This document shows, one piece after another, positions 5,408 through 31,625 of a stretch of DNA of 33,415 bases. The DNA is taken from positions 1-33,415 of the forward strand of contig JAITLI010000032.1 in NCBI GenBank assembly GCA_031277975.1. The letters are read 5' to 3'. The translations under genes and the position numbers were made by a program. Each line of letters begins with the position of its first letter. The stretch's first letter is position 1. Origin of the DNA: Azoarcus sp. GTDB lineage: Bacteria > Pseudomonadota > Gammaproteobacteria > Burkholderiales > Rhodocyclaceae. The notes beneath the pieces were generated by a model. That model did not search any database, was not told the DNA's origin, and saw nothing but the letters and a program-made list of their open reading frames with translations.

Positions 5408-8400
5408 TCAGGTTTTCGGCGCGTTGCCGCGTCCCTGTTCGAGATAGGCGCGGGTATCCTCCGCATTCATCGGGCGGGCATGTTTGTAGCCTTGGATGAT
5501 ATTGCAGCGCAGGGTCTGGAAATAATCCCACTGTGTTTCGTTTTCCACGCCCTCCGCGATGAGCCGCATTCCCATGGAGTGCGCGACGACGGAGATGGCG
5601 GCGATGGTGGAATTCACTTTGACGTCGCCGATCCTGGAAGTGAAAAAATGGTCGATCTTGACCGCGTCAACCGGATATTCGAACAGGTTTTCAAGCGCCG
5701 AACGTTCGACGACCAGCCGGTCGATGACGATCTCGATACCCATTTCGCGCAGTTCCCTTATCATTGTCACGGTCTGGGTGGAATTACGCAGCAGGGTGTA
5801 TTCCGATATTTCAAACGCCACATATTGAGTATTGACTCGATAAGCATTCAAAATGGCCTGGACGCGCGCGATAAAGCCGCTCTGCTCGAAATGCCTTGGC
5901 GAGATATTGAATGAAATGCGGCCCGAGAACAGACCTTCGTCCAGCCATTCCCGCACATGGGAACAGGCCATGCGCAGGATATGGAAGTCGATTTCGCGGC
6001 AAACGCCGCAATGTTCGGCGGCTTCCATGAACTCTCCGGGCAAAAGCATGCCTTTCTCTGGATGCATCCAGCGCGCCAGCACTTCGAGATACAGAACGCG
6101 GTGCGTGCTCGTGCAATAAAGCGGCTGAAAATACGGTATGAATTGGCGCTCGTCCAGGGCCACGCGCAATGCTTTTTCCAGGCGAATGGAAGTGAAGAGT
6201 TTTTCCTGTATCTTTTCCTCAAAAAATTTGTAGCGCATTCCGCCAGCCGTTTTGGAAGCGTACATCGCCATATCGGCGTTCTTGATGATTTCCTCGGGGT
6301 CCTGGTCTTTTTTGTCGCTGAGGAAGGTCGCAATGCCGATACTGACGTTGATGTTCATTTTGTTGCCGGCCAGCATGACGGGAGCGCGGAGCCGGTCCAG
6401 AATGTCCTGTGCCAGGATGGCGGCCTGCTCCGGCCTGTCGATGCCGTTCATGATGACGGCGAATTCGTCGCCGCCCAGGCGCGCCGCCGTATCCATCCTG
6501 CGCACCCGTTCTTGCAGGACGTTGCCCATGTGCCCCAGCAGCATGTCGCCCACGGTATGTCCCAGGGTGTCGTTGACTTGCTTGAATTGGTCGAGATCGA
6601 AGAAAAGCAGCGCGCCATGTTTGCCCGAGCGCCCGCTCTGGCTGACCGCTTTCTGCAATTGTTCGTTGAACAGCATGCGGTTGGCGAGGCCGGTGAGCGG
6701 ATCGTGCCCGGCCAGGTATTGCGCTTTTTCTTCCGCGGCGCGGCGGATGCAGATTTCTTCGGAAAGCTGGCGGTTGGTTTCTGAAAGTTCCCGGGTGCGC
6801 ACATCGACGATTTTTTCCAGGTTGTCGCGCATGTCGCGCAGTTCGGCTTCGGCGCGGGTGCGAACCAGGATTTCTTTTTCCAGTTCGGTGACGTTTTTGT
6901 TCAGGGCTTCCGCCATTTCGTTGAACGTGCCGGCAAGCGAGGTGATTTCATCTTCGTATTTATAGTGGAAACGAAAATCTTTTTCGCCAAGGCGGTAGCG
7001 GTTGAAACCGTCGTCGAGCCAGCCGATTTTCTTCGTCAGAAACGAGGCCATCCAAATGGCGATGATGATGACCGCCACAATCAGGATGGCGGTCGATACC
7101 GTCAAACGCGAGGCGGCTTGCGCGAGGTCGTCGTGCAGCATGCGGCTGGCTGCGTCGCCGTGGCGCCGCATTTCATCGTTGACGGCCTTGATGATGCCGT
7201 CGAGGCGTTCTTTCGATTCGTTGGCGTCGCGGTGGAAATCGTCGACGTTGGCGCCGACGGTGACGATGCCGAAGCCGCGCTTGTTGCCCGCGGCTTCGGG
7301 GCTGTAGCGCCCGGTGTAGTAGGGAATGGCCGCGGTGGTGGTCAGTTTGTACAGACCGCTCCACAAGATGAGGAAGGAACCGGAGCCGCCTTGGTCGGCG
7401 AGGTTGTACCAGCCCGTGCATTGCGGGGCGAAATTGAGCCAGCGGCAATCGAGGCCGACATCGCCGCGCTCGGTCAGTTCCCGCGCCGGTTTGCGGCTTT
7501 GCAATTGATCGACGAAAGTCGGCGCGGTCTGCATGTACTCGGGCCAGCTTTTGCCGCTTTGCCGCCAGTCTTCATATATTCTGTCTTCCAGCCAGGGGAT
7601 GTACGGCTCGCCGTCCTGGTCGTAGCCGACGATGGAGTGGTGGCGGGGATGGACGATGCTGCGGCCCTTGTAGTCCCAGATGAAGGCGTAATTGCCGTCG
7701 AAGGCATCGTTGATGTCGCGGTAGCGCTCGTCGGAGGGGACGATGTGGTCGGTAAACGACATCAGGTGATCGTGGTTCAGCGCCAGCGTCACCCAGCCGG
7801 TGATCTTGCCGTTTTTCGTCACAGGCGTCGCCCAGCGCATGATGCCCCGGAAGCGTTTGCCGACCGGGTTTTCCTTGCCGGCGTAGGCGTGTTTTTCCGG
7901 CTCGAAGGCAATGCCGCGTTCCTCGGCGGCCCGCGGGGTGAATTTGCCGATGATCTGTGAGCCGACATAGGCGCCGATGACTTCGGAGACGTAGATTTCG
8001 CCGGGTTTGAGCCGCTCCAGATCCGCGAAATAAGTTTCCGCCCTGGCGTAGGTGTTGCGCCGCTGCGAAACGTCCTTCAGTTCCGCGGAGTGTTCGGGGG
8101 AGGTCGTGACCTTGAGTTTTTCCTTGCCATCCCGCCCGATAAAGGTCATTTCGAGATAAAGCGGCACGCTTTCCGCGTTGAACTCCGTCGGGGCGCGGTA
8201 ATGAAAGCTCGTGGCGTTGTCGCGGCTACCCGGCTGGGCGACGTAATCATCCGCGGCGGGGGTGGTTTCGGGCTCCCAGTCTTCGCCGTCTTCGCTCAGG
8301 CGCCATTTGCCGTGCCTGATCAGGTTGCGGCGGCGCTGATCCACGAAATTGCGGTAGGCCGCCTTGTCCGGTGCGAGGGTGGCGGCATGGAGAATGTCTA

Positions 8401-8701
8401 CGTCGCGGGCGTACAGGAAATCCGCGACCCGGCGCGCGGTGTCGGTGGTCAGGCGCTCGATTTCGTCGCGCGCGTGCGCGTCGAGCGCATTGACGGCATC
8501 GTCGATCGCCATGTCGCCGACTTTCAGAATGGCCCGGTCGGCGGTCTCGACCAGGCCGCCGATTTGTTCTCCGAGATGATTGGCCGTCGCCCGCGTCTGG
8601 CTCCAGGCGATCCAGAGCAGCAGCACCAGCGGCACCACTTTGATCGCAACAAACAGCAGGATCAGACGAACGCGAACGGATAGCTTGAGCCAGAAATCCA
8701 T
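5408..8701 (-). CDS. Membrane sensor protein: large periplasmic region, TM, HAMP, GGDEF (intact), EAL (degenerate)
   Basis: 1097 aa; N-terminal TM, second TM LTVSTAILIVAVIIIAIWMASFL followed by HAMP-like segment; I-site RRMD and RLGGDEFAV present; EAL domain reads YLEVLARW and loop 6 reads IDRLVVERSAL instead of IDDFGTGYSSL. Confidence 0.92.
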   Translation of the reverse strand: MDFWLKLSVRVRLILLFVAIKVVPLVLLLWIAWSQTRATANHLGEQIGGLVETADRAILKVGDMAIDDAVNALDAHARDEIERLTTDTARRVADFLYARDVDILHAATLAPDKAAYRNFVDQRRRNLIRHGKWRLSEDGEDWEPETTPAADDYVAQPGSRDNATSFHYRAPTEFNAESVPLYLEMTFIGRDGKEKLKVTTSPEHSAELKDVSQRRNTYARAETYFADLERLKPGEIYVSEVIGAYVGSQIIGKFTPRAAEERGIAFEPEKHAYAGKENPVGKRFRGIMRWATPVTKNGKITGWVTLALNHDHLMSFTDHIVPSDERYRDINDAFDGNYAFIWDYKGRSIVHPRHHSIVGYDQDGEPYIPWLEDRIYEDWRQSGKSWPEYMQTAPTFVDQLQSRKPARELTERGDVGLDCRWLNFAPQCTGWYNLADQGGSGSFLILWSGLYKLTTTAAIPYYTGRYSPEAAGNKRGFGIVTVGANVDDFHRDANESKERLDGIIKAVNDEMRRHGDAASRMLHDDLAQAASRLTVSTAILIVAVIIIAIWMASFLTKKIGWLDDGFNRYRLGEKDFRFHYKYEDEITSLAGTFNEMAEALNKNVTELEKEILVRTRAEAELRDMRDNLEKIVDVRTRELSETNRQLSEEICIRRAAEEKAQYLAGHDPLTGLANRMLFNEQLQKAVSQSGRSGKHGALLFFDLDQFKQVNDTLGHTVGDMLLGHMGNVLQERVRRMDTAARLGGDEFAVIMNGIDRPEQAAILAQDILDRLRAPVMLAGNKMNINVSIGIATFLSDKKDQDPEEIIKNADMAMYASKTAGGMRYKFFEEKIQEKLFTSIRLEKALRVALDERQFIPYFQPLYCTSTHRVLYLEVLARWMHPEKGMLLPGEFMEAAEHCGVCREIDFHILRMACSHVREWLDEGLFSGRISFNISPRHFEQSGFIARVQAILNAYRVNTQYVAFEISEYTLLRNSTQTVTMIRELREMGIEIVIDRLVVERSALENLFEYPVDAVKIDHFFTSRIGDVKVNSTIAAISVVAHSMGMRLIAEGVENETQWDYFQTLRCNIIQGYKHARPMNAEDTRAYLEQGRGNAPKT

Positions 8702-17584: not shown

Positions 17585-17612
17585 ATCGGGCGCTTTCGCG
17601 CCCGATCGTTTT
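17585..17612 (+). terminator. Rho-independent terminator after gatA
   Basis: Perfect 9-bp stem ATCGGGCGC-tttc-GCGCCCGAT followed by cgtttttt. Confidence 0.9.
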
Positions 17613-17981: not shown

Positions 17982-20108
17982 ATGGACACAAATCGCACGC
18001 AGAGCATCTTTGCACGGTACCGCAAAATCATTTTCGCCGTGATTTTGTTTATGGTCGCCGATACGGTCGTGATTGCTATTAATTTCTACAATACTTACAA
18101 GGCTGACGAATCCGCCATTTCGATCAACCTTTCGGGACGGCAGCGGATGCTTTCGCAGCGCATGACCAAGGTGCTGCTGCTGACGCAGCGCAGCGTGGAA
18201 GCAGGCGATGACGCGGGCGTCGAGAAAAACCTGAAGGAACTCGACCTCACGGTGAATCTCTTCAATACCACGCTCAAGGGATTCCGCGACGGTGACAACG
18301 TCACCGGCGGCGACGGCAAGCCGGCCTTCCTGGTCCAAGTCGAAACGGACAAATCCCGGCAAATCGTGGCGGACGCCTATAAGATCTGGATGCCATATCT
18401 GGAATTGTTGCAGCCGCTGCTGGGCAAGACCAGCGTTACAGACGTTCAGGCCCTTGAAGCCGCGGTCGCCTATGCCCAGGCCAACAATCTGGAAGTCCTG
18501 CGTCTCATGAACGACTTGACCACCGATCTGGAAATCGTCGCCAACCAGCGCGCCAGTACCCTGCGGATCGTCTTGACCATCGGCATCATCGTGGCGTTCT
18601 TCAACTTCAGCTATACCGTCGTCGTTTCCATCCGGAATCTGATGGCCAGCGACAGGGACCTCGCGCAGGCCCGTCACGAAACCCACGAAATCCTGTCGAC
18701 CGTCCACGAAGGACTGTTCCTGCTGAGCAAGGACAAGAAACTGGGCACGCAATTTTCGAGCTCCCTGCCCATCATGCTGCACCGGGACATCGAACCCGGC
18801 ATGGATTTCCTGCCCATCTTGCAAGGAATGGTTTCGCAGGAAGTCTACGATTCCGCGGTGGATTACATTGAGTTGCTCCTGGGCGAACGCGTGAAGGAAT
18901 CTCTGGTCGCCAGCCTCAACCCGCTGACCGACGTGCCGGTCACCATGGTCGACAAATTCGGCAGCATCCAGAACCGCTACCTGTCGCTGTTCTTCAACCG
19001 GGTCATCATCGACGGCGCGATTTCGCATATCCTGGTGACAGTGCAGGACACGACCGAAAAAGTCTTGCTGGCGCAGCAACTCGAACAGGCGAAGAGCAGG
19101 GCGAAGATCGAAATCGAGGCACTGCTGCGGCTGGCGGGCAGCGATTTCGACTCGCTCCGGCAATTCATCGACAACACCGGAGAATCGCTGGCGCAAATCA
19201 ACAAGAAACTGAGCGAGACCCAGGAAAACGACCGCGAGCGCCTGCACACCCTGAATTACGTCATGCGCCTCGTACACGGTATCAAGGGCGAAGCGGCGGT
19301 GCTCGGCATCGACGCCCTGGAAGAGTACGCCCACGCCAGCGAGCAGGAAATGGTCGCCATGCGCGAAAACAGCGACCGGGATGGATTGAGCGGCGAGCAG
19401 ATGTTGCGCATCGCCGTGCTGCTGGAAGGCTTCTACGAGCGCTATTCCTCGCTCTCCAGCGTCGTCTCGCGCCTCGGCGAAGCCTTGGGTGCACAGGCGC
19501 CGGACGCGGGTGACGCGGGCGAAACCAGGGCGCGGACGCAGACGCAAACGCCCCCGTTCGTCCAGCAGATCGCGGATCTGGCGCACCGCATCGCCACGGA
19601 TCACGGCAAGGATGTCGAGGTATCATGTCAACTCGAAAAACTCTCCTCCCTGCCCAAGCATATCGTGCAGGAGCTGCAAAGCATCTCCATCCAGCTCGTC
19701 CGCAATGCCCTGTCGCACGGGATCGAAACACCGGAAGAACGCAGCAACCGCCAAAAACCCAAAATGGGAGCCTTGTGCCTCTTGTGCGAATATCTGGGCA
19801 ACAATCGCTACGACTTCACCGTGCGGGACGATGGCCGCGGCATCGTGCCCGAACACTTGCGCGCGAGCTTGGTGGAAAGCGGCCGCCTGAGCAGGGCGGA
19901 AGCGTCGGCCATGAGCGACGAAGAAATCGCCCAGCTCATTTTCCAGCCGGGCGTGTCTTCCGCGGCGAAGGCGGACCGGGACGCGGGGCATGGCGTTGGC
20001 TTGGACATCGTCCTGGAAAAGGTAAAGAGCTTCAATGGCCGCATGCTGGTCAGGAGCCGCCCGAACATGTTCACTGAGTTCCACATCCAATTCAGCACGG
20101 CAGGATAA
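17982..20108 (+). CDS. Membrane-bound CheA-like sensor kinase: PilJ/NarX-type N-terminal sensor, Hpt-like domain, CheA-type HATPase
   Basis: Two TMs flanking INLSGRQRMLSQRMTKVLLL; Hpt-like LVHGIKGEAAVLGIDALEEYAH; CheA-type N box SIQLVRNALSHGIETPEER, G1 DDGRGI, G2 GHGVGLDIV. The protein ends just after the ATPase domain. Confidence 0.88.
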   Translation: MDTNRTQSIFARYRKIIFAVILFMVADTVVIAINFYNTYKADESAISINLSGRQRMLSQRMTKVLLLTQRSVEAGDDAGVEKNLKELDLTVNLFNTTLKGFRDGDNVTGGDGKPAFLVQVETDKSRQIVADAYKIWMPYLELLQPLLGKTSVTDVQALEAAVAYAQANNLEVLRLMNDLTTDLEIVANQRASTLRIVLTIGIIVAFFNFSYTVVVSIRNLMASDRDLAQARHETHEILSTVHEGLFLLSKDKKLGTQFSSSLPIMLHRDIEPGMDFLPILQGMVSQEVYDSAVDYIELLLGERVKESLVASLNPLTDVPVTMVDKFGSIQNRYLSLFFNRVIIDGAISHILVTVQDTTEKVLLAQQLEQAKSRAKIEIEALLRLAGSDFDSLRQFIDNTGESLAQINKKLSETQENDRERLHTLNYVMRLVHGIKGEAAVLGIDALEEYAHASEQEMVAMRENSDRDGLSGEQMLRIAVLLEGFYERYSSLSSVVSRLGEALGAQAPDAGDAGETRARTQTQTPPFVQQIADLAHRIATDHGKDVEVSCQLEKLSSLPKHIVQELQSISIQLVRNALSHGIETPEERSNRQKPKMGALCLLCEYLGNNRYDFTVRDDGRGIVPEHLRASLVESGRLSRAEASAMSDEEIAQLIFQPGVSSAAKADRDAGHGVGLDIVLEKVKSFNGRMLVRSRPNMFTEFHIQFSTAG

Positions 20109-20116
20109 ATACCGAA

Positions 20117-20485
20117 ATGAAACTCCTGATCGTTGACGATTCCGCGATTATCAGAAGCCGCATTGCGCGCGTACTGGGTAATTCACGCTTGGTTTCCATC
20201 GACGTGATTGGCATGGCCCGCAACGGCATAGAAGCCATCACGCTCTTTTTGCAGAATCCCCCGGACATCGTGACCATGGACATCACCATGCCGGGAATGG
20301 ATGGGGTCGATTGCACGGAGAAAATGATCAGCCTTCATCCCGAATGCAATATCCTCGTCATTTCCGCGCTGAGCGACAAGGCCACGGCCTTGAAAGCCCT
20401 GAAAAAAGGGGCACGCGGTTTTCTTTACAAGCCATTCACCGACGAAGAACTGGTCGCAGCCTTGCTGGAGCTTACACACTCATGA
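20117..20485 (+). CDS. CheY-like single-domain response regulator
   Basis: 122 aa; LLIVDDSAIIRSRI, DIVTMDITMPGMDGVD, VISALSD, KPF: all receiver active-site residues present. Confidence 0.95.
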   Translation: MKLLIVDDSAIIRSRIARVLGNSRLVSIDVIGMARNGIEAITLFLQNPPDIVTMDITMPGMDGVDCTEKMISLHPECNILVISALSDKATALKALKKGARGFLYKPFTDEELVAALLELTHS

Positions 20486-20958
20486 GCACCACCACTCTCA
20501 TCAATGAACACGACATCCAGAGCTTCGTGGAAGCCGTCAGCTCTTTTTTCTTCCAGATCACCCAAGAAAAGGTAGAGATCCGCTCCGCTTATCTAGTGGA
20601 AGGCGGCATTTCGCCCACGACGTTCGATCTGACCAGTTTCATCACCCTTTCCGGGGAGTTTTCCGGGCGCGTGTATTTTTCGGCGCCGCGCGTCATGGTC
20701 GCGCATCTCCTGCTCGCGATGCAGGAACCGGACCGGGGCGATGAACGCCTGCTGGATGCGGTCGGCGAAATCGCCAACACAATTTCCGGCAACGCCCGCA
20801 AGCATTTTGGCGAGAGCATGCAAATTTCCGTACCGGTCACGCAAACCACCGAGCGCGACTGGCTGAGCAGCGTCGCCTCGCCGCGCTCCTATGTCATTCT
20901 CGTGAGGTGGAAGCAGTATCGGGCATCCGTCGTCGTCGACATCCAGCGCATCGGCTGA
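20482..20958 (+). CDS. CheX-like chemotaxis phosphatase
   Basis: FVEAVSSFFFQITQEKVEIRSAYL...FSGRVYFSAPRVMVAHLL...DAVGEIANTISGNARKHFG (E-x2-N phosphatase motif); ATGA overlap with the CheY stop. Confidence 0.87.
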   Translation: MSTTTLINEHDIQSFVEAVSSFFFQITQEKVEIRSAYLVEGGISPTTFDLTSFITLSGEFSGRVYFSAPRVMVAHLLLAMQEPDRGDERLLDAVGEIANTISGNARKHFGESMQISVPVTQTTERDWLSSVASPRSYVILVRWKQYRASVVVDIQRIG

Positions 20959-21112: not shown

Positions 21113-24100
21113 TCACATCGTATCGAGCAGGCGCAAAGCTTCGTCGAATTCCGAAACAAGCACCAGTCCGACGAGCTTCGAGACGGCATCGTGTTTTTCA
21201 TTGCCGAGCGGCTGCGATTGCAAGGCCGACAGCGCGGCATCCATGCCGTCCAGATCTCCCGCTTCCAACGCCGCCCTCAACCGGGCCAGGGTTTGACGCT
21301 CCAGTTCCGAGTCGGCGGCGGCGTTTTCATTCCTTGACGCATTGCCGGCTTGCGCTTCCACGAGCGCCTTGCCTATCCGTGCGCTCAGGTTGGCCAGCCC
21401 GGAGCGGAACTTCTCCAGGTTCTGGCGAATGAAGGCGCTGTCGCCACGGTGTCCGGCGGATTCCAGCAAAGCCGCCGACTTCGACAAAGCCTTCGCGCCA
21501 ACATTGGCTATCGCATTCTTCAAGGCATGGACACTGGTGGTAAAAGCCTTCAGTTCCTCGGGCAAGACCGGCACTTCCAGCAAGGGGAGCCGTTGCTCCA
21601 CATCCTGCCGGAAAACATCGAGAAGACTCAGGTAACGTTCTTCGGAACCACCCACACTGGATACCCCCGTGGCGATATCCAGGCCCTCGATCCCCGAGAA
21701 ACACATGATCGCCTCGGTTTTTATCTCCTTTTTCACCACTTGTGGCGCATCCTGACGCTTTTCTTTCGGTATCCAGCGGCTCAGGATGGCGTCGAGTTTG
21801 GCAACTTCTATCGGTTTCGAAAGAAAATCGTCGAAACCGTTTTCGAGGAACATTTCCCGCATCCCGGAAACGGCATTGGCGGTGAGCACGATAATGGGCA
21901 CTTTCTTGAAATATTCACCTTCCAGATTTCGAATGATGTGAACGGCTTCCAGACCATCCATTCCCGGCATCATATGGTCCATGAAAATGATGTCGTAGCA
22001 CTGGCGACGCGCCAATTCAATGGCCTCGTGTCCGCTCGCGGCACAATCGATCTGCAATTCGTAGATGGCCATGAGACCTTGGGCCACGCGCAGATTCGTG
22101 GCAAGATCATCCACAACCAGAACACGCGCGCCAGGTAAAATGAAGCGGACGCCGTTTTCAGCGACACGCGCATAATGTTTCGCATCCAGCAGGCCATTCA
22201 GGATATTGGCGATTGCGGGAGCGTAAGTCGGCATGATCAATGTGCGTACATTGCTTCCCGGCATCTGCTCGTCCGGTTCGGTATCGAGGAGCACCGGCAC
22301 GGCGCCGGGAGCGAGCCGGCCTCCTTCGGCAATGACTTCCGCCATCAAGTGACGCGGCGAAAACACAAAAGCGTAATCATGGGCAAGCAATTCATTGACG
22401 AAATCCTCATGGGTATGCACGCTTTCGCAAAATACGCCAAGGTTGCGAACAGCCGAAACGATGTAATCGACATACCCCCGCTGCGGCTCATACACTAGGA
22501 CGCTTTTCTTTTCCGGCTCCAGCACCTCCGCAAAACGGCGATATTCCCGGATACCTTGCGAGAACGTCGCGGTAAAGGTCGTGCCTTCACCATAAACGCT
22601 CTTGACAGTAATATCCCCTCCCATCATCCGGCTGAGGCTGCGGCTGATGGCAAGCCCCAAGCCGGTACCTTCAATACCCTTGTTTTTGACAGAATCGATC
22701 TGGACAAAATCGCCAAACAATTTGTCCATGTCTTCTTCTTTGATACCTATTCCGGTATCACGCACCTCGCAACAAATATCCGCGACATCCGGCCCGGTTC
22801 TCTTGCCATCAATGGAAAGGAAAATATGGCCCTTCCTCGTATACTTGGCAGCATTGCTCAACAAGTTCAACAATATTTGGCGAACTCGCATCTCATCGCC
22901 GATGATCATCCCCGGCAAGCAGCTATCGACATAGACAGAAAAGCGCACTGGCTTTTCCAGTAAACGCATCCGGATGATTGTAATAACATCGTTAAGCAAA
23001 GAACCAAGATCGTATTCTACATTCACGTTTTCCAATTTCCCGGATTCTATTTTGGAAAAATCAAGAATATCGTCGATCAGGGCAAGCAAATTCGAGCCCG
23101 CCTGTTTGATATCCGCCGCATAGGACTTGGTGGTCTGCGGAGCGTCATCGCGCAGGATCAGTTCGCTCATACCGATAACGGCGTTCATCGGCGTGCGTAT
23201 TTCATGCGACATCTTCGCCAGGAATGCACTCTTGGAACGGTTGGCGCGCTCCGCTTCCAGACGGGCTTCCACCAATTGCGTGACATCGCTGATATCCACG
23301 AACCTGCCCGCCGCGCCGCCTTCTTCATCCTCGAGCAAATCGGATATGATCCTGAAATGCCACGATTCACCGTCCTCCTCCACTTCGATCGTATTTTCGT
23401 AATATCCATCGCATTCGAAAATGTCGCTGATCATCAGTTTCATGTTCATCCGAAGAAAAAGATCGACCAGCGGACGCCCGATGGCCAATTCCGCACTTTC
23501 GATATGCGCCAGTTTTGCCATTGGCTCGCTGAGGTAAGTAACGCGATTCATTCGATCTACCATGGCGACGATATTGGGCGTAGTCGCCATGAAAGAAACG
23601 AAAACCTTCTCCGCCCGGAAGGAGCGTAAATTCTTGCCGGAAGTCAAGCGCGCCAATACCAAAAAGAGGAACGCGGCAAAAACGCTGAACCCCCACTTCA
23701 CAAATATCCCGTCGAAGCTCACTTCCCTGCCCAGCAAGGGTACCTCCGCCAGCAGCAAAAGAAAAACAACGGCAGCTTCGGTGATGGCCAAAAACAATAA
23801 AGACCTATATTTTCCGTAGACAGCGCCAATGCCGATCAGGCAAATGCACGCATCGAAGTAATAGGACAATCCCGCCACATACATACTGTCGGCAGTCAAC
23901 GCCAGGAAAACGAGAAGCGGGATCAAATACGACATCAATTCAATATTCGTAACAACGCATATCAGAAGTGCTATTACGGCGACAAGCAGCAAGCAGATAG
24001 ACAACAGAAAGGCCACATTCTCCCAAACCCCGGCATTGATATATTGTGGCAATTGGATACTGACAAAAATCATTATACCGATAAAAATGAAAAGATTGCC

Positions 24101-24337
24101 TGTCAAATAACAATTCCTGTCGCTTTTCCCCTTAAGCAAGCGATCTACCCTTCTCATCGCTGGAACGATAAACAGCAACATTGGTAAAGAAACACAAAAC
24201 AATACCATCAACTCGAAACCAGAGCCGGATTCGACGGTATATTTCAGATTCGAAAATATGACGGCAAGTACGCAAATCAGCCCCAGGATGGCAGACCAGC
24301 GGAAATAACCTTTCCCCAAGTTGCTTTTGAAATTCAT
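21113..24337 (-). CDS. Hybrid sensor histidine kinase: multi-TM, PAS, HisKA, HATPase, degenerate receiver, canonical receiver, Hpt
   Basis: [22 protein letters not shown] (H box), [30 protein letters not shown]; receiver [12 protein letters not shown]...[13 protein letters not shown]...SKPI; C-terminal Hpt [13 protein letters not shown]. Confidence 0.95.
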
Positions 24338-25335
24338 GGCCGCACTCCCGAAGTAACTTCGTTCGTCGCGCCGGTTGGCGTGACGATGCGCACTACACCA
24401 GGTTTCACTTCTACCGTAATGTATTTATCGTAGAAAACTTCCCCGTCCAGATCAAGCATCAAGGGACTATCTGAAATCACAAAAACCTTTTTCGCCCGTT
24501 GGTATGAAAACAGATCCGGATGCTCGGCATGCTTGCCGTGCACATAATACGATACCATTTTGAATGTATTCAGGACACTCGTATCTCCACTGCACAGCAC
24601 ATCCAGCCATCCGTCGGACGACGAAGCTTCGGGAATGATGGTTTTATCTCCCGAATACATCGGCGTGTTGGCGATGTTGATAATGGCGCGCGAACCGCCC
24701 CAATCCTCGCCATCGACCCATATCCGGTAATTCTGCTTGGCGAGCGCGCGTCTGGCGATAATCGAAGCGGACAGCCAGCGCACAAGAAAATCGGGCATAT
24801 GACGCCATAAAAAGCCGTGGTGACTTTTCAACACCATGGAACTGATATTGGTCAGCGACTCCAACCCGACCAAACAATAACTCAGCGCATAATTACTGCC
24901 GCAATACAGTGCATCCATCGGTATGGAAGGTGCATTGATCTGCGCGTTCAAGGAATGAAAGAGCTTCTTGTCTTTTTGCCCGAAAACGCGGTAAAAACTG
25001 TCTTCCGTACCGTAAGGCATCGTACCCAACTCCGCGTTCGGCAACCCCACGACACCGTTCAGGCAATCGAACAAAATGCCGTCGCCGCCCACGGCAAACA
25101 CCCGCAACGGCACGCCAGGCGAAGCCGCGCCCGCGAACCGGCGTATCGCACCGATGGCATCACGGGGAAACCGTGAAATATGAACCGCGTACTCCGGACT
25201 TGCCTGTGCTTCCGCATCTTGTTCCCTGAAAAAACGGTGTATCCCCTCAATAACACTATCCATTTCCCGGCGGCTGTGGAAACATACCGGATTGACAACA
25301 AAAAAGTATCTTTTCGGGGGCAAGGGCATTGTCAT
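24334..25335 (-). CDS. Diacylglycerol/sphingosine kinase-fold protein with altered nucleotide-binding motifs
   Basis: [32 protein letters not shown] (cf. GGDGT), [16 protein letters not shown] (cf. P-x-GTxNDF), late [10 protein letters not shown] and [13 protein letters not shown] typical of YegS/DagK C-terminal regions. Confidence 0.8.
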
Positions 25336-25438: not shown

Positions 25439-26536
25439 TCATTTTGCCGCCCCCGCCACTGTTACCAGGCGTAAATCTTCCGAGCATTTTTCAAACAACT
25501 CGACCAGCATTGGATCGAAGTGCTTTCCCTTGCCTTGCCGGATAATATCGACTGATGTCCAATGATCGAATGCATTTTTATATGGGCGCACGGAGGTCAA
25601 GGCTTCGTAAACATCGACAATTGCCATCAAGCGCCCGAGGAGCGGGATTTCCATACCGGCAATCCCGCCAGGGTAGCCAGTGCCATCCCATTTCTCGTGA
25701 TGATACCTGGCAAAAGTCTTGGCATGCTGCAAGAAAAGACTGTCCTCCTCGTCTTCTTCAAGCCTCTCGATGAAACTGACGCCAAAAGCAACATGATTTT
25801 TCATTTCCCGGAATTCTTCATCAGTCAACTTGCCGGGCTTTTTGAGAATACTGTCCAGGATGGCAATTTTGCCGACATCATGCAACTGGGAAGACTGGAG
25901 CAGCAATTCCAGATCCCAACCCGCCGTTTGATCCCTGTACAAGTCCTCTTCCATCAAAGCAGTCAACAATACCCGCAAACATTGTTGAGTGCGTCCGATA
26001 TGATTGCCCGTGTCGGTATCGCGTCCTTCCACCAGTTCCGCCATTGCGCGCAATACTTTATTCTGCAACTTCAGGACAGTCTGTGTTTTTTCCGCCACCA
26101 TTTTCTGGAGATTGTCGTTGTAATCCTGTAGCGTTTTTCTTTGTGATTCCATCAACAGATGCAACTCCACCCGCTTCTTCAGAAGCGCGGCGGAAAAAGG
26201 TTTGGCGATATAATCCACGGCTCCAAGACTCAATCCCATGAGTTCGCTTTTATCATCGTTCATGGCGGTCAGGAAAATAACAGGAATATCTGAAGTATCC
26301 GGGCTTCCTTTCAATATTTTGATAGCCTCGTAACCGTTCATCTCCGGCATATCGACATCCAGGAGAATCAATTCCGGGACGTAGCTACTCAACATTTCGA
26401 ACATCTTGCGTGCGGATGCCACGGTCAACACTCTATAGGAGTTTGACAATGCGGTTTTACCGACCATCAAATTGGCTAGGCTGTCATCGACCAGCATGAT
26501 CAACTTGCGGTCATCCACAACGTTCTTATCGCTCAT
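25439..26536 (-). CDS. Response regulator with C-terminal HD-GYP domain (probable cyclic-di-GMP phosphodiesterase)
   Basis: LVDDSLANLMV, LILLDVDMPEMNGYE, KPFS receiver residues; ELVEGRDTDTGNHIGRTQ, LHDVGKIAI, HHEKWDGTGYPGGIAG, IVDVYEALTSVRPYK; start at MSDKN with upstream ggagg/ggaga. Confidence 0.94.
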   Translation of the reverse strand: MSDKNVVDDRKLIMLVDDSLANLMVGKTALSNSYRVLTVASARKMFEMLSSYVPELILLDVDMPEMNGYEAIKILKGSPDTSDIPVIFLTAMNDDKSELMGLSLGAVDYIAKPFSAALLKKRVELHLLMESQRKTLQDYNDNLQKMVAEKTQTVLKLQNKVLRAMAELVEGRDTDTGNHIGRTQQCLRVLLTALMEEDLYRDQTAGWDLELLLQSSQLHDVGKIAILDSILKKPGKLTDEEFREMKNHVAFGVSFIERLEEDEEDSLFLQHAKTFARYHHEKWDGTGYPGGIAGMEIPLLGRLMAIVDVYEALTSVRPYKNAFDHWTSVDIIRQGKGKHFDPMLVELFEKCSEDLRLVTVAGAAK

Positions 26537-26616
26537 TTCTCCTCCAGACGCAAAATTCAATTCAAAAATACTGATGCCATGAGCAGAGGATTTATCAAGG
26601 ATGTCCTCACATCGAC

Positions 26617-29774: not shown

Positions 29775-30191
29775 CGAAGTGTTCCGCGAGAGGCAAGAGG
29801 CCCGAATGGAAGGCGCGTAATGATACGGCATCGGCGCGTCCTCGCGGTGTGATCCCGCGCATGATTCGTCCAGGCCGCCCGCCATGGGCGAGATGCCAAC
29901 GTTACATCGAGGATTCGCGGCGGATAGTATTCATGAACGGGCGTTATGATTCATCGGATTCAGTCCCCATATCGTGCCAGGAATGGCCGCCCGCATCTTC
30001 TTTCTCCGCCGATCGGATCGGTGCGGGATCCGATCCCGCGGAAGTTTTGCAAAAGGCCCGCTTATCCGCGCCCATTGCCCGGGAAGCCGCTCATGACGCG
30101 AGCCATCCTGATGTATCATCATCCCCGGAATCGCCCAGCCCGCTGTAACGCCGTGGTGATGAAAAGCCATATAGACGACAAGGAGTGCGCC

Positions 30192-31625
30192 GTGCCGAAC
30201 AATGATGCTCTCGATGGACTGAAGCCTCGGCCATTGTCGATGGAAGAGGTCGACCAAATACGAAAGCTTGCTGAGCAAGTGCGCGACTCGACCCGGAAAC
30301 ATTTTCAGACCGAACTGAATTATGACGAGGAAAGCATACGCTGGCTGGATCGGTTCATCGAACAGATGCGGTCGATGCCTGAAGATCAATGGCCCATTGG
30401 CCCCATCGGCTCATTTCTCGGCGAATGCATCATCCGGAATTTTGGCGGGCAATGGGTAAGAGGTGGCGGAATGCTCGGCGTTGCATTCGATGACAGGAAC
30501 GTTGCCTTTCCCTATAACAAGACGGCTAAGCAATTTACAAACGGAGCCGAGGGAGGAGATGCAATATCGGGGCTTTATCACACGGTGTCGCAACTTTTCC
30601 ATACGGCGGGAAAACCCTTGACGCCTGTTCAGGACAAACTCCTGGAATTTTTCCAGAAGGGTTGCCGTATTTTCGTTTTTTCCGATGAGGAATGGAAAGA
30701 AGTCGAGGAAATCGACGATCGTTTGCTAAACGAGGGGCGTTGGCTGAAGCTCCGCAAGAAATCGTCTGTTTCATATACAACCTCGATACCGCTTGCCCAG
30801 ATCGACCGTTTCTATGCTTGTTCGTCAACCGGGCGGCTGCTGCATACTGAACGGATACAAAAGCCGGATTTGGAAACCCTGCCCGCGGAAATACTCGAAC
30901 AAATCAAGCGCGCCATCCCGGCGGACACTTCATCGACCGTTGACCAACTGGAGCGTGGAAAACGATTCGTCGAAATCGATCCGGATGAGGATACCGCGCA
31001 CTATGTGCGCCCTGTGCGCGCCCTGCCCGAAGTGGAAGACGCGCTCTTCAAGCTGAGAAGAAACTGGATGCAATGGCAGCAGCGGGCGGATTCGTTTTCC
31101 GTGGCTTCCATGTCGATTCCCCGCCCGCCCTGGATGTCCCAGGTAAAGGATGACGGGCTGGAGGAACTTTTCCGGCGGCAGGGATTGTTGCTCAAGGAAG
31201 GGAAAATCATGTGGGCGGCGGTGATCCAGGCAAACACACTGTTGTTCGAACCGGGCAATGACGATTGCCCGGGATGTTTCGTCTATTCCCCGGACACTTA
31301 CTTCGATTCGCGCCCGCAGGAATTACGCTCGATCGGGCACAAGATATTTTCGTTCAAGGAAACGAATCCATCCGACCCGAAACTGAAAGAGGTCGCGCGG
31401 CGAGTCACCGACGAAGCGGCCTACACGATGGGGTTCACACTCCCCAAAGTGTTTTCGGACAAGGAAATCCGGTGGGTCACGACCATCGTCTGCCGAAAGC
31501 ATATCCCCGATGGCGTGCTGTCGTCTGGCTTCTACCCTATCCTGATCCATCCATCCACGCGAGCGGTCATGATCGTTCCGTGCCAGCTCTGGCCTGCCGG
31601 ATTGTCCGCCTTGCCGGTCTCCTGA
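30192..31625 (+). CDS. Uncharacterised two-part protein with an N-terminal DUF3806-like segment
   Basis: aaggag ~6 nt upstream of GTG at 30192 (alternative ATG at 30159). N-terminal [12 protein letters not shown]...[58 protein letters not shown] resembles DUF3806; the C-terminal half was not recognised. Confidence 0.75.

Follow-up and report, generated by a model that had tools for sequence, protein, structure and literature searches.

How would a kinase with CheA-like catalytic parts signal if it is anchored in the membrane and carries no domain for binding CheW? The question is raised by one gene in a 33,415-nucleotide stretch of DNA from Azoarcus sp. (contig JAITLI010000032.1), called the window below, the product of which had been described in a sequence-only reading as a fusion of receptor and kinase that may bypass CheW/MCP arrays.

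Architecture of the Receptor-Kinase

The open reading frame (17982..20108, +) begins with the ATG at 17982, has a stop codon that ends at 20108 and encodes 708 amino acids, the parts of which follow one another in the order given here. A first hydrophobic and putatively transmembrane helix (aa 15-36; 18024..18089, +), recognized by its sequence IIFAVILFMVADTVVIAINFY and helical in an AlphaFold model, leads into a PilJ-type four-helix sensor that contains INLSGRQRMLSQ (aa 38-194; 18093..18563, +; Pfam and model), and this is followed by a second hydrophobic helix that is putatively transmembrane by sequence and model (aa 195-217; 18564..18632, +). The order of secondary structure elements in the model then suggests a PAS-like domain (aa 244-356; 18711..19049, +), which is seen in the model only and was not called by Pfam, and a linker helix that is modeled as a probable coiled coil (aa 358-385; 19053..19136, +). 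The homologue L084 gives a Pfam PAS_4 match (E 3e-6). Pfam, conservation, and the model agree on an Hpt (P1) domain (aa 389-502; 19146..19487, +) with H432 as the phospho-acceptor (codon 19275-19277), and Pfam, structure matches, and conservation agree on a CheA-type P4 ATPase with its N, G1, F, and G2 boxes (aa 525-706; 19554..20099, +).

The Pfam matches, PilJ at 38-109 (E 6e-10), Hpt at 392-462 (7e-9), and HATPase_c at 570-704 (8e-11), are all above the curated cut-off. When compared with solved structures by phmmer, residues 542-702 align with the P4 domain of Thermotoga maritima CheA (1i58, E 1.6e-25), and in the solved-structure search residues 386-461 match CheA P1 weakly. Domain-level Foldseek matches of the model are CheA P4 structures, with a TM-score of at most 0.84 on the target, and the top partial matches in NCBIfam are CheA models across 527-704, far under their cut-offs. 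The AlphaFold model was built from 32 family members and has a mean pLDDT of 81.6 and a pTM of 0.37, the latter making its domain arrangement unreliable; its individual segments are a membrane-spanning helical sensor, an alpha/beta PAS-like fold over 244-356, the helix of the linker (358-385), an Hpt bundle of helices (389-502), and, after disorder over 505-522, P4 (525-705), beyond which the protein ends.

Searched with Pfam at E values up to 1, the window kinase has no CheW, H-kinase_dim (the P3 dimerization domain), or HisKA match, and having no HisKA (DHp) domain beside HATPase_c it is not a classical HisKA sensor kinase. H-kinase_dim was not detected in other members either (E up to 0.1), and no P2 was found in the kinase. 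A single helix (525-540) precedes P4 in the AlphaFold model, in which the last P4 strand (697-705) closes the chain and no SH3-like domain is seen. The PilJ-type extracytoplasmic sensor, which lies between the two hydrophobic helices, the internal Hpt-like motif around H432, and the CheA-type ATPase had all been named in the sequence-only reading and are borne out by these matches, as is the claimed lack of a CheW-binding domain, for which the Pfam search and structure prediction returned neither a CheW domain nor an SH3-like fold. Its description of an end right after the G2 box needs amendment, because the chain runs about 33 residues past G2, but it does stop at the true end of P4. The PAS-like domain, the lack of a recognizable P3, and a CheX gene after CheY are additions to that reading.

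CheY and CheX in the Same Gene Unit

A stand-alone CheY-like receiver (20117..20485, +; D55, S83, F102, K105) starts 8 bases past the kinase stop. It is followed by a CheX phosphatase gene with the EIAN motif kept (20482..20958, +), the likely start of which, ATG at 20482, shares the 4 bases ATGA with the stop of cheY. The acidic pocket, the D55 region, S83, and K105 of CheY are conserved, with a Phe where Escherichia coli has Tyr106. CheX is identified by Pfam PF13690 (E 2e-17) and by its E-x-x-N active-site motif, the surrounding GEIAN being conserved across 49 aligned sequences.

Where 1.3 kb or more could be read downstream of the kinase gene, CheY comes next in 47/47 loci and CheX follows CheY in 45/47. 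The two loci without CheX are paralogues in one genome of 1.8 Mb (G314), which holds three copies of the kinase (L086, L087, and L090), only one of them adjoined by CheX. None of 42 canonical CheA loci, most of which span about 3 kb, so that more distant genes would escape, has a CheX nearby, and in all 24 module carriers searched the best CheX of the genome is the module's own. This linkage places CheY and CheX in the unit of the kinase, a set of three genes. A neighborhood comparison found no further gene that recurs across distant carriers, and deducing the output from the gene neighborhood was dropped for that reason. On the upstream side, a terminator-like stem-loop (17585..17606, +), picked up in a consensus scan with a count not above that of shuffled sequences, may set the preceding amidase gene apart from the module. 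Elsewhere, tandem copies of the module lie in one genome (L092; G530:C4:250695-265328), one copy being followed by two CheX genes, and two neighboring open reading frames of 299 and 318 codons there have no Pfam match.

Catalytic Residues and Proposed Signaling Route

Over 32 homologues that are 26-77% identical to the window kinase, H432, K435, N575, and H579-G580 are invariant, as are D616-D617-G618-G620 and the G2 glycines, and a pattern check over all members found a single one, L043, that misses one ATPase box pattern. By these residues, the catalytic parts of the kinase are intact.

We consider it probable that the three genes encode a self-contained module, in which a one-protein receptor-kinase signals to its own CheY, which is reset by CheX, without CheW, P5, or MCP arrays. 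An inner-membrane protein, presumably dimeric, would sense through its periplasmic domain, which is PilJ-type here. The signal would pass by way of the second membrane helix, the PAS-like domain, and the helical linker to the P4 ATPase, which would phosphorylate H432 of the built-in Hpt domain. From H432 the phosphoryl group would be transferred to the adjacent CheY, a direction that we infer from the conserved motifs and the gene linkage, and the adjacent CheX would be expected to strip it from this CheY. CheW, CheA P5, and MCP arrays would not be needed because receptor and kinase are one protein. Counted against this model are the lack of a P3 for dimer contact, the two of three G314 paralogues that have no adjacent CheX, the possible cross-talk with canonical systems in most carriers, and the restriction of CheW-free carriers to a single family (f44).

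Carriers, Arrays, and Flagella

The module is found in Rhodocyclaceae and in scattered other proteobacteria. By a hand count of near-full-length matches, it is carried by at least about 28 of the 151 genomes sampled in the family, at least 11 more in the order, and at least one genome outside the order with two tandem copies, all of these being lower bounds because the broad searches scored two or three candidates per genome. The close relatives of the window locus are "Azoarcus" metagenome-assembled genomes, which from isolate names and general knowledge we take to be termite-gut isolates.

The canonical systems of the window genome lie apart from the module: its five CheW domains are spread over contigs C20 and C86, with none on the contig of the window, and FliM is present. 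FliM is found in 31 and CheW in 37 of 40 carriers, and cross-talk is possible in most carriers, the window genome included, because canonical che and chp systems are also present. Taken with the CheY-like nature of the messenger, these counts could be explained by a kinase that feeds chemotaxis or twitching arrays, either by associating in trans with canonical CheA (or CheW) or through a CheY that acts as an extra input to the flagellar motor. We judge this to be quite unlikely, since the kinase has neither P5 nor P3 for array contact and since nine carriers without FliM and three without CheW still retain the kinase and CheY, and usually CheX. HMM searches of the assemblies of G314, G347, and G277 found no CheW domain, MCP signaling domain, or FliM. 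These genomes are of the one family f44 and 99-100% complete (G347 and G277 are single-contig), and they have divergent sensors but retain kinase, CheY, and CheX. Because CheW, MCP, and FliM are undetected there, the kinase has to do without CheW/MCP arrays and flagella in these three genomes, and the array bypass proposed from the sequence alone gains support from them.

For the self-contained module, the output in the carriers that lack FliM cannot be the flagellar motor, and we have a weak preference for an action on type IV pili or on some other target inside the cell. PilT was present in 11/11 carriers tested, a comparison that comprised carriers only and no non-carriers and therefore carries no weight for a pilus output.

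Convergent with the module lies a large hybrid kinase with HisKA, HATPase, receiver, and Hpt domains (21113-24337, -), shared only in close relatives. A YegS/DAGK-like lipid kinase gene (24334-25335, -) overlaps its start, and a receiver-HD-GYP regulator (25439-26560, -) forms a dense signaling cluster with the two; neither the lipid kinase nor the regulator is common to distant carriers. With a HisKA-HATPase-REC-Hpt protein next door, the module kinase might serve mainly as a phosphatase or phosphorelay element to another kinase, such as this one on the opposite strand, and not as an autokinase, but this is very improbable given that the hybrid neighbor is not common to distant carriers, whereas the ATPase boxes and H432 are. 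Farther away in the window, a GGDEF-EAL protein of 1097 aa (5408-8701, -) adjoins the cell-wall elongation genes for RodA, a lytic transglycosylase, and MreB, and a 559-codon open reading frame upstream of mnmE (29946-31625, +) has no Pfam match at E 1e-5.

The CheW-less Ending Is a Family Trait

Two to three residues follow P4 in the window kinase before the stop, and 11 close homologues stop at the same residues. In post-P4 lengths taken from 116 P4 domains in the fetched loci, 0-29 aa follow P4 in all 51 distinct homologues, whereas the sampled canonical CheAs continue for 132 aa or more, which leaves them room for P5. Over a diverse alignment of 32 members, Pfam finds Hpt and HATPase_c in 32, PilJ in 31, and CheW and H-kinase_dim in none, and ten further, more distant proteins agree for Hpt, HATPase_c, and CheW. 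The CheW-less ending is a fixed trait of the family and not a truncation, and the fusion of receptor and kinase in one polypeptide without a CheW-binding domain, as first read from this one protein, is true of the whole family. It is hardly credible that an ordinary CheA had its P3 and P5 overlooked or lost to an assembly error or frameshift, for although the window genome is fragmented (204 contigs) and divergent CheAs are known to escape the H-kinase_dim model (PMC10542144), dozens of independent homologues share the C-terminal end and the 8-base gap to cheY has no room for a further domain, which together rule out a missed or frameshifted P5, and in addition the AlphaFold model has no extra domain and the P4 of the kinase is a separate lineage.

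Sensory Input

The nitrate N-box defined for McpN reads [IVL]-[ND]-x-A-G-x-Q-R-M-L-[ST]-Q (PMC6381276), and G-x-x-R is a feature of nitrate-sensing kinases (PMC8199190). The corresponding INLSGRQRMLSQ of the window kinase is one residue off the N-box, with S for A, and so falls outside the strict pattern; its G-x-x-R core is present, so that the window kinase may still bind nitrate. Among 50 full-length members the strict N-box is found in 9, and the G-x-x-R form in 36 by a loose pattern, at least one of these hits (L053) being spurious. Nitrate as the ligand was kept as a lead only, because the N-box is degenerate or lost in part of the family and narG, which was not found in the window genome, was found in only 6/37 carriers and is absent from 31. 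The sole match of the sensor domain among solved structures is McpN, at a non-significant E of 0.72.

One member, L051, carries a Cache sensor instead of PilJ, and the f44 members L086-L090 have no Pfam PilJ match, with the rest of the kinase unchanged. Such a pattern, in which the input varies while the core of kinase, CheY, and CheX stays constant, is expected of a receptor-kinase module.

Relation to CheA and Other Known Systems

CheA is defined by four core domains, Hpt, dimerization, HATPase_c, and CheW (Berry et al. 2023, PMC10542144). The window kinase has the Hpt domain with its conserved His and the CheA-type HATPase_c, but P3 was not detected and a CheW-like P5 was not found, and under this definition it is not a CheA. 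The label "CheA-like" given to it earlier is fair for the catalytic parts, and by inference the protein works like CheA in its P1 and P4 chemistry. The likeness extends to the HxxKG of P1, to a P4 that is 31-32% identical to the T. maritima P4 structures, and to CheY as the expected phosphate acceptor; the differences are the missing P2, P3, and P5/CheW, the N-terminal membrane receptor, a P4 of separate lineage, and the occurrence of the module in genomes without detectable CheW and MCP.

Other systems share single parts. NarX/NarQ and McpN have the PilJ-type periplasmic four-helix sensor, and many module members have the G-x-x-R motif, but the kinase contains neither the HisKA-type core of NarX/NarQ nor the MCP tail of McpN. 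The CheY-CheX pair, a lone-receiver CheY and a CheX with the conserved E-x-x-N, resembles that of spirochaetes and Thermotoga, where CheX sits with a CheA/CheW/MCP operon, whereas the module CheX is tied to a CheW-less kinase. Similar in design is a kinase on an Ideonella plasmid (WP_151125625.1; L059:2864-5254) with a 4HB_MCP-HAMP sensor, Hpt, CheA-type ATPase, and no CheW match; its P4, however, groups with CheA on a long branch, the next gene is annotated as MCP, and no CheY or CheX is annotated beside it. This fusion, which has a different sensor, shows that CheW-less receptor-kinases as a design also occur outside the module lineage. As far as could be found, the module itself appears undescribed, no description having been met in the open-access literature (subscription papers lay outside the search).

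When 92 P4 domains are placed in a tree, the 51 from the module fall on one side of a branch and all others on the opposite side (support 100/99). The tree is unrooted, so that it accommodates a CheA that lost its P5 as well as an earlier divergence. A tentative idea, which we think unlikely, is that the module lineage diverged before CheA gained its P5/CheW coupling and does not descend from a CheA that lost P3 and P5; if true, the module would be a surviving relative of an intermediate between two-component systems and chemotaxis. As a conserved lineage with its own receptor, CheY, and CheX, present even in genomes where CheW and MCPs were not detected, the module shows that a sensor can be connected straight to the catalytic machinery of CheA. 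Two questions can thereby be put to the test: what controls P1 and P4 when P3 and P5 are missing, and whether such kinases gained or lost their coupling to arrays.
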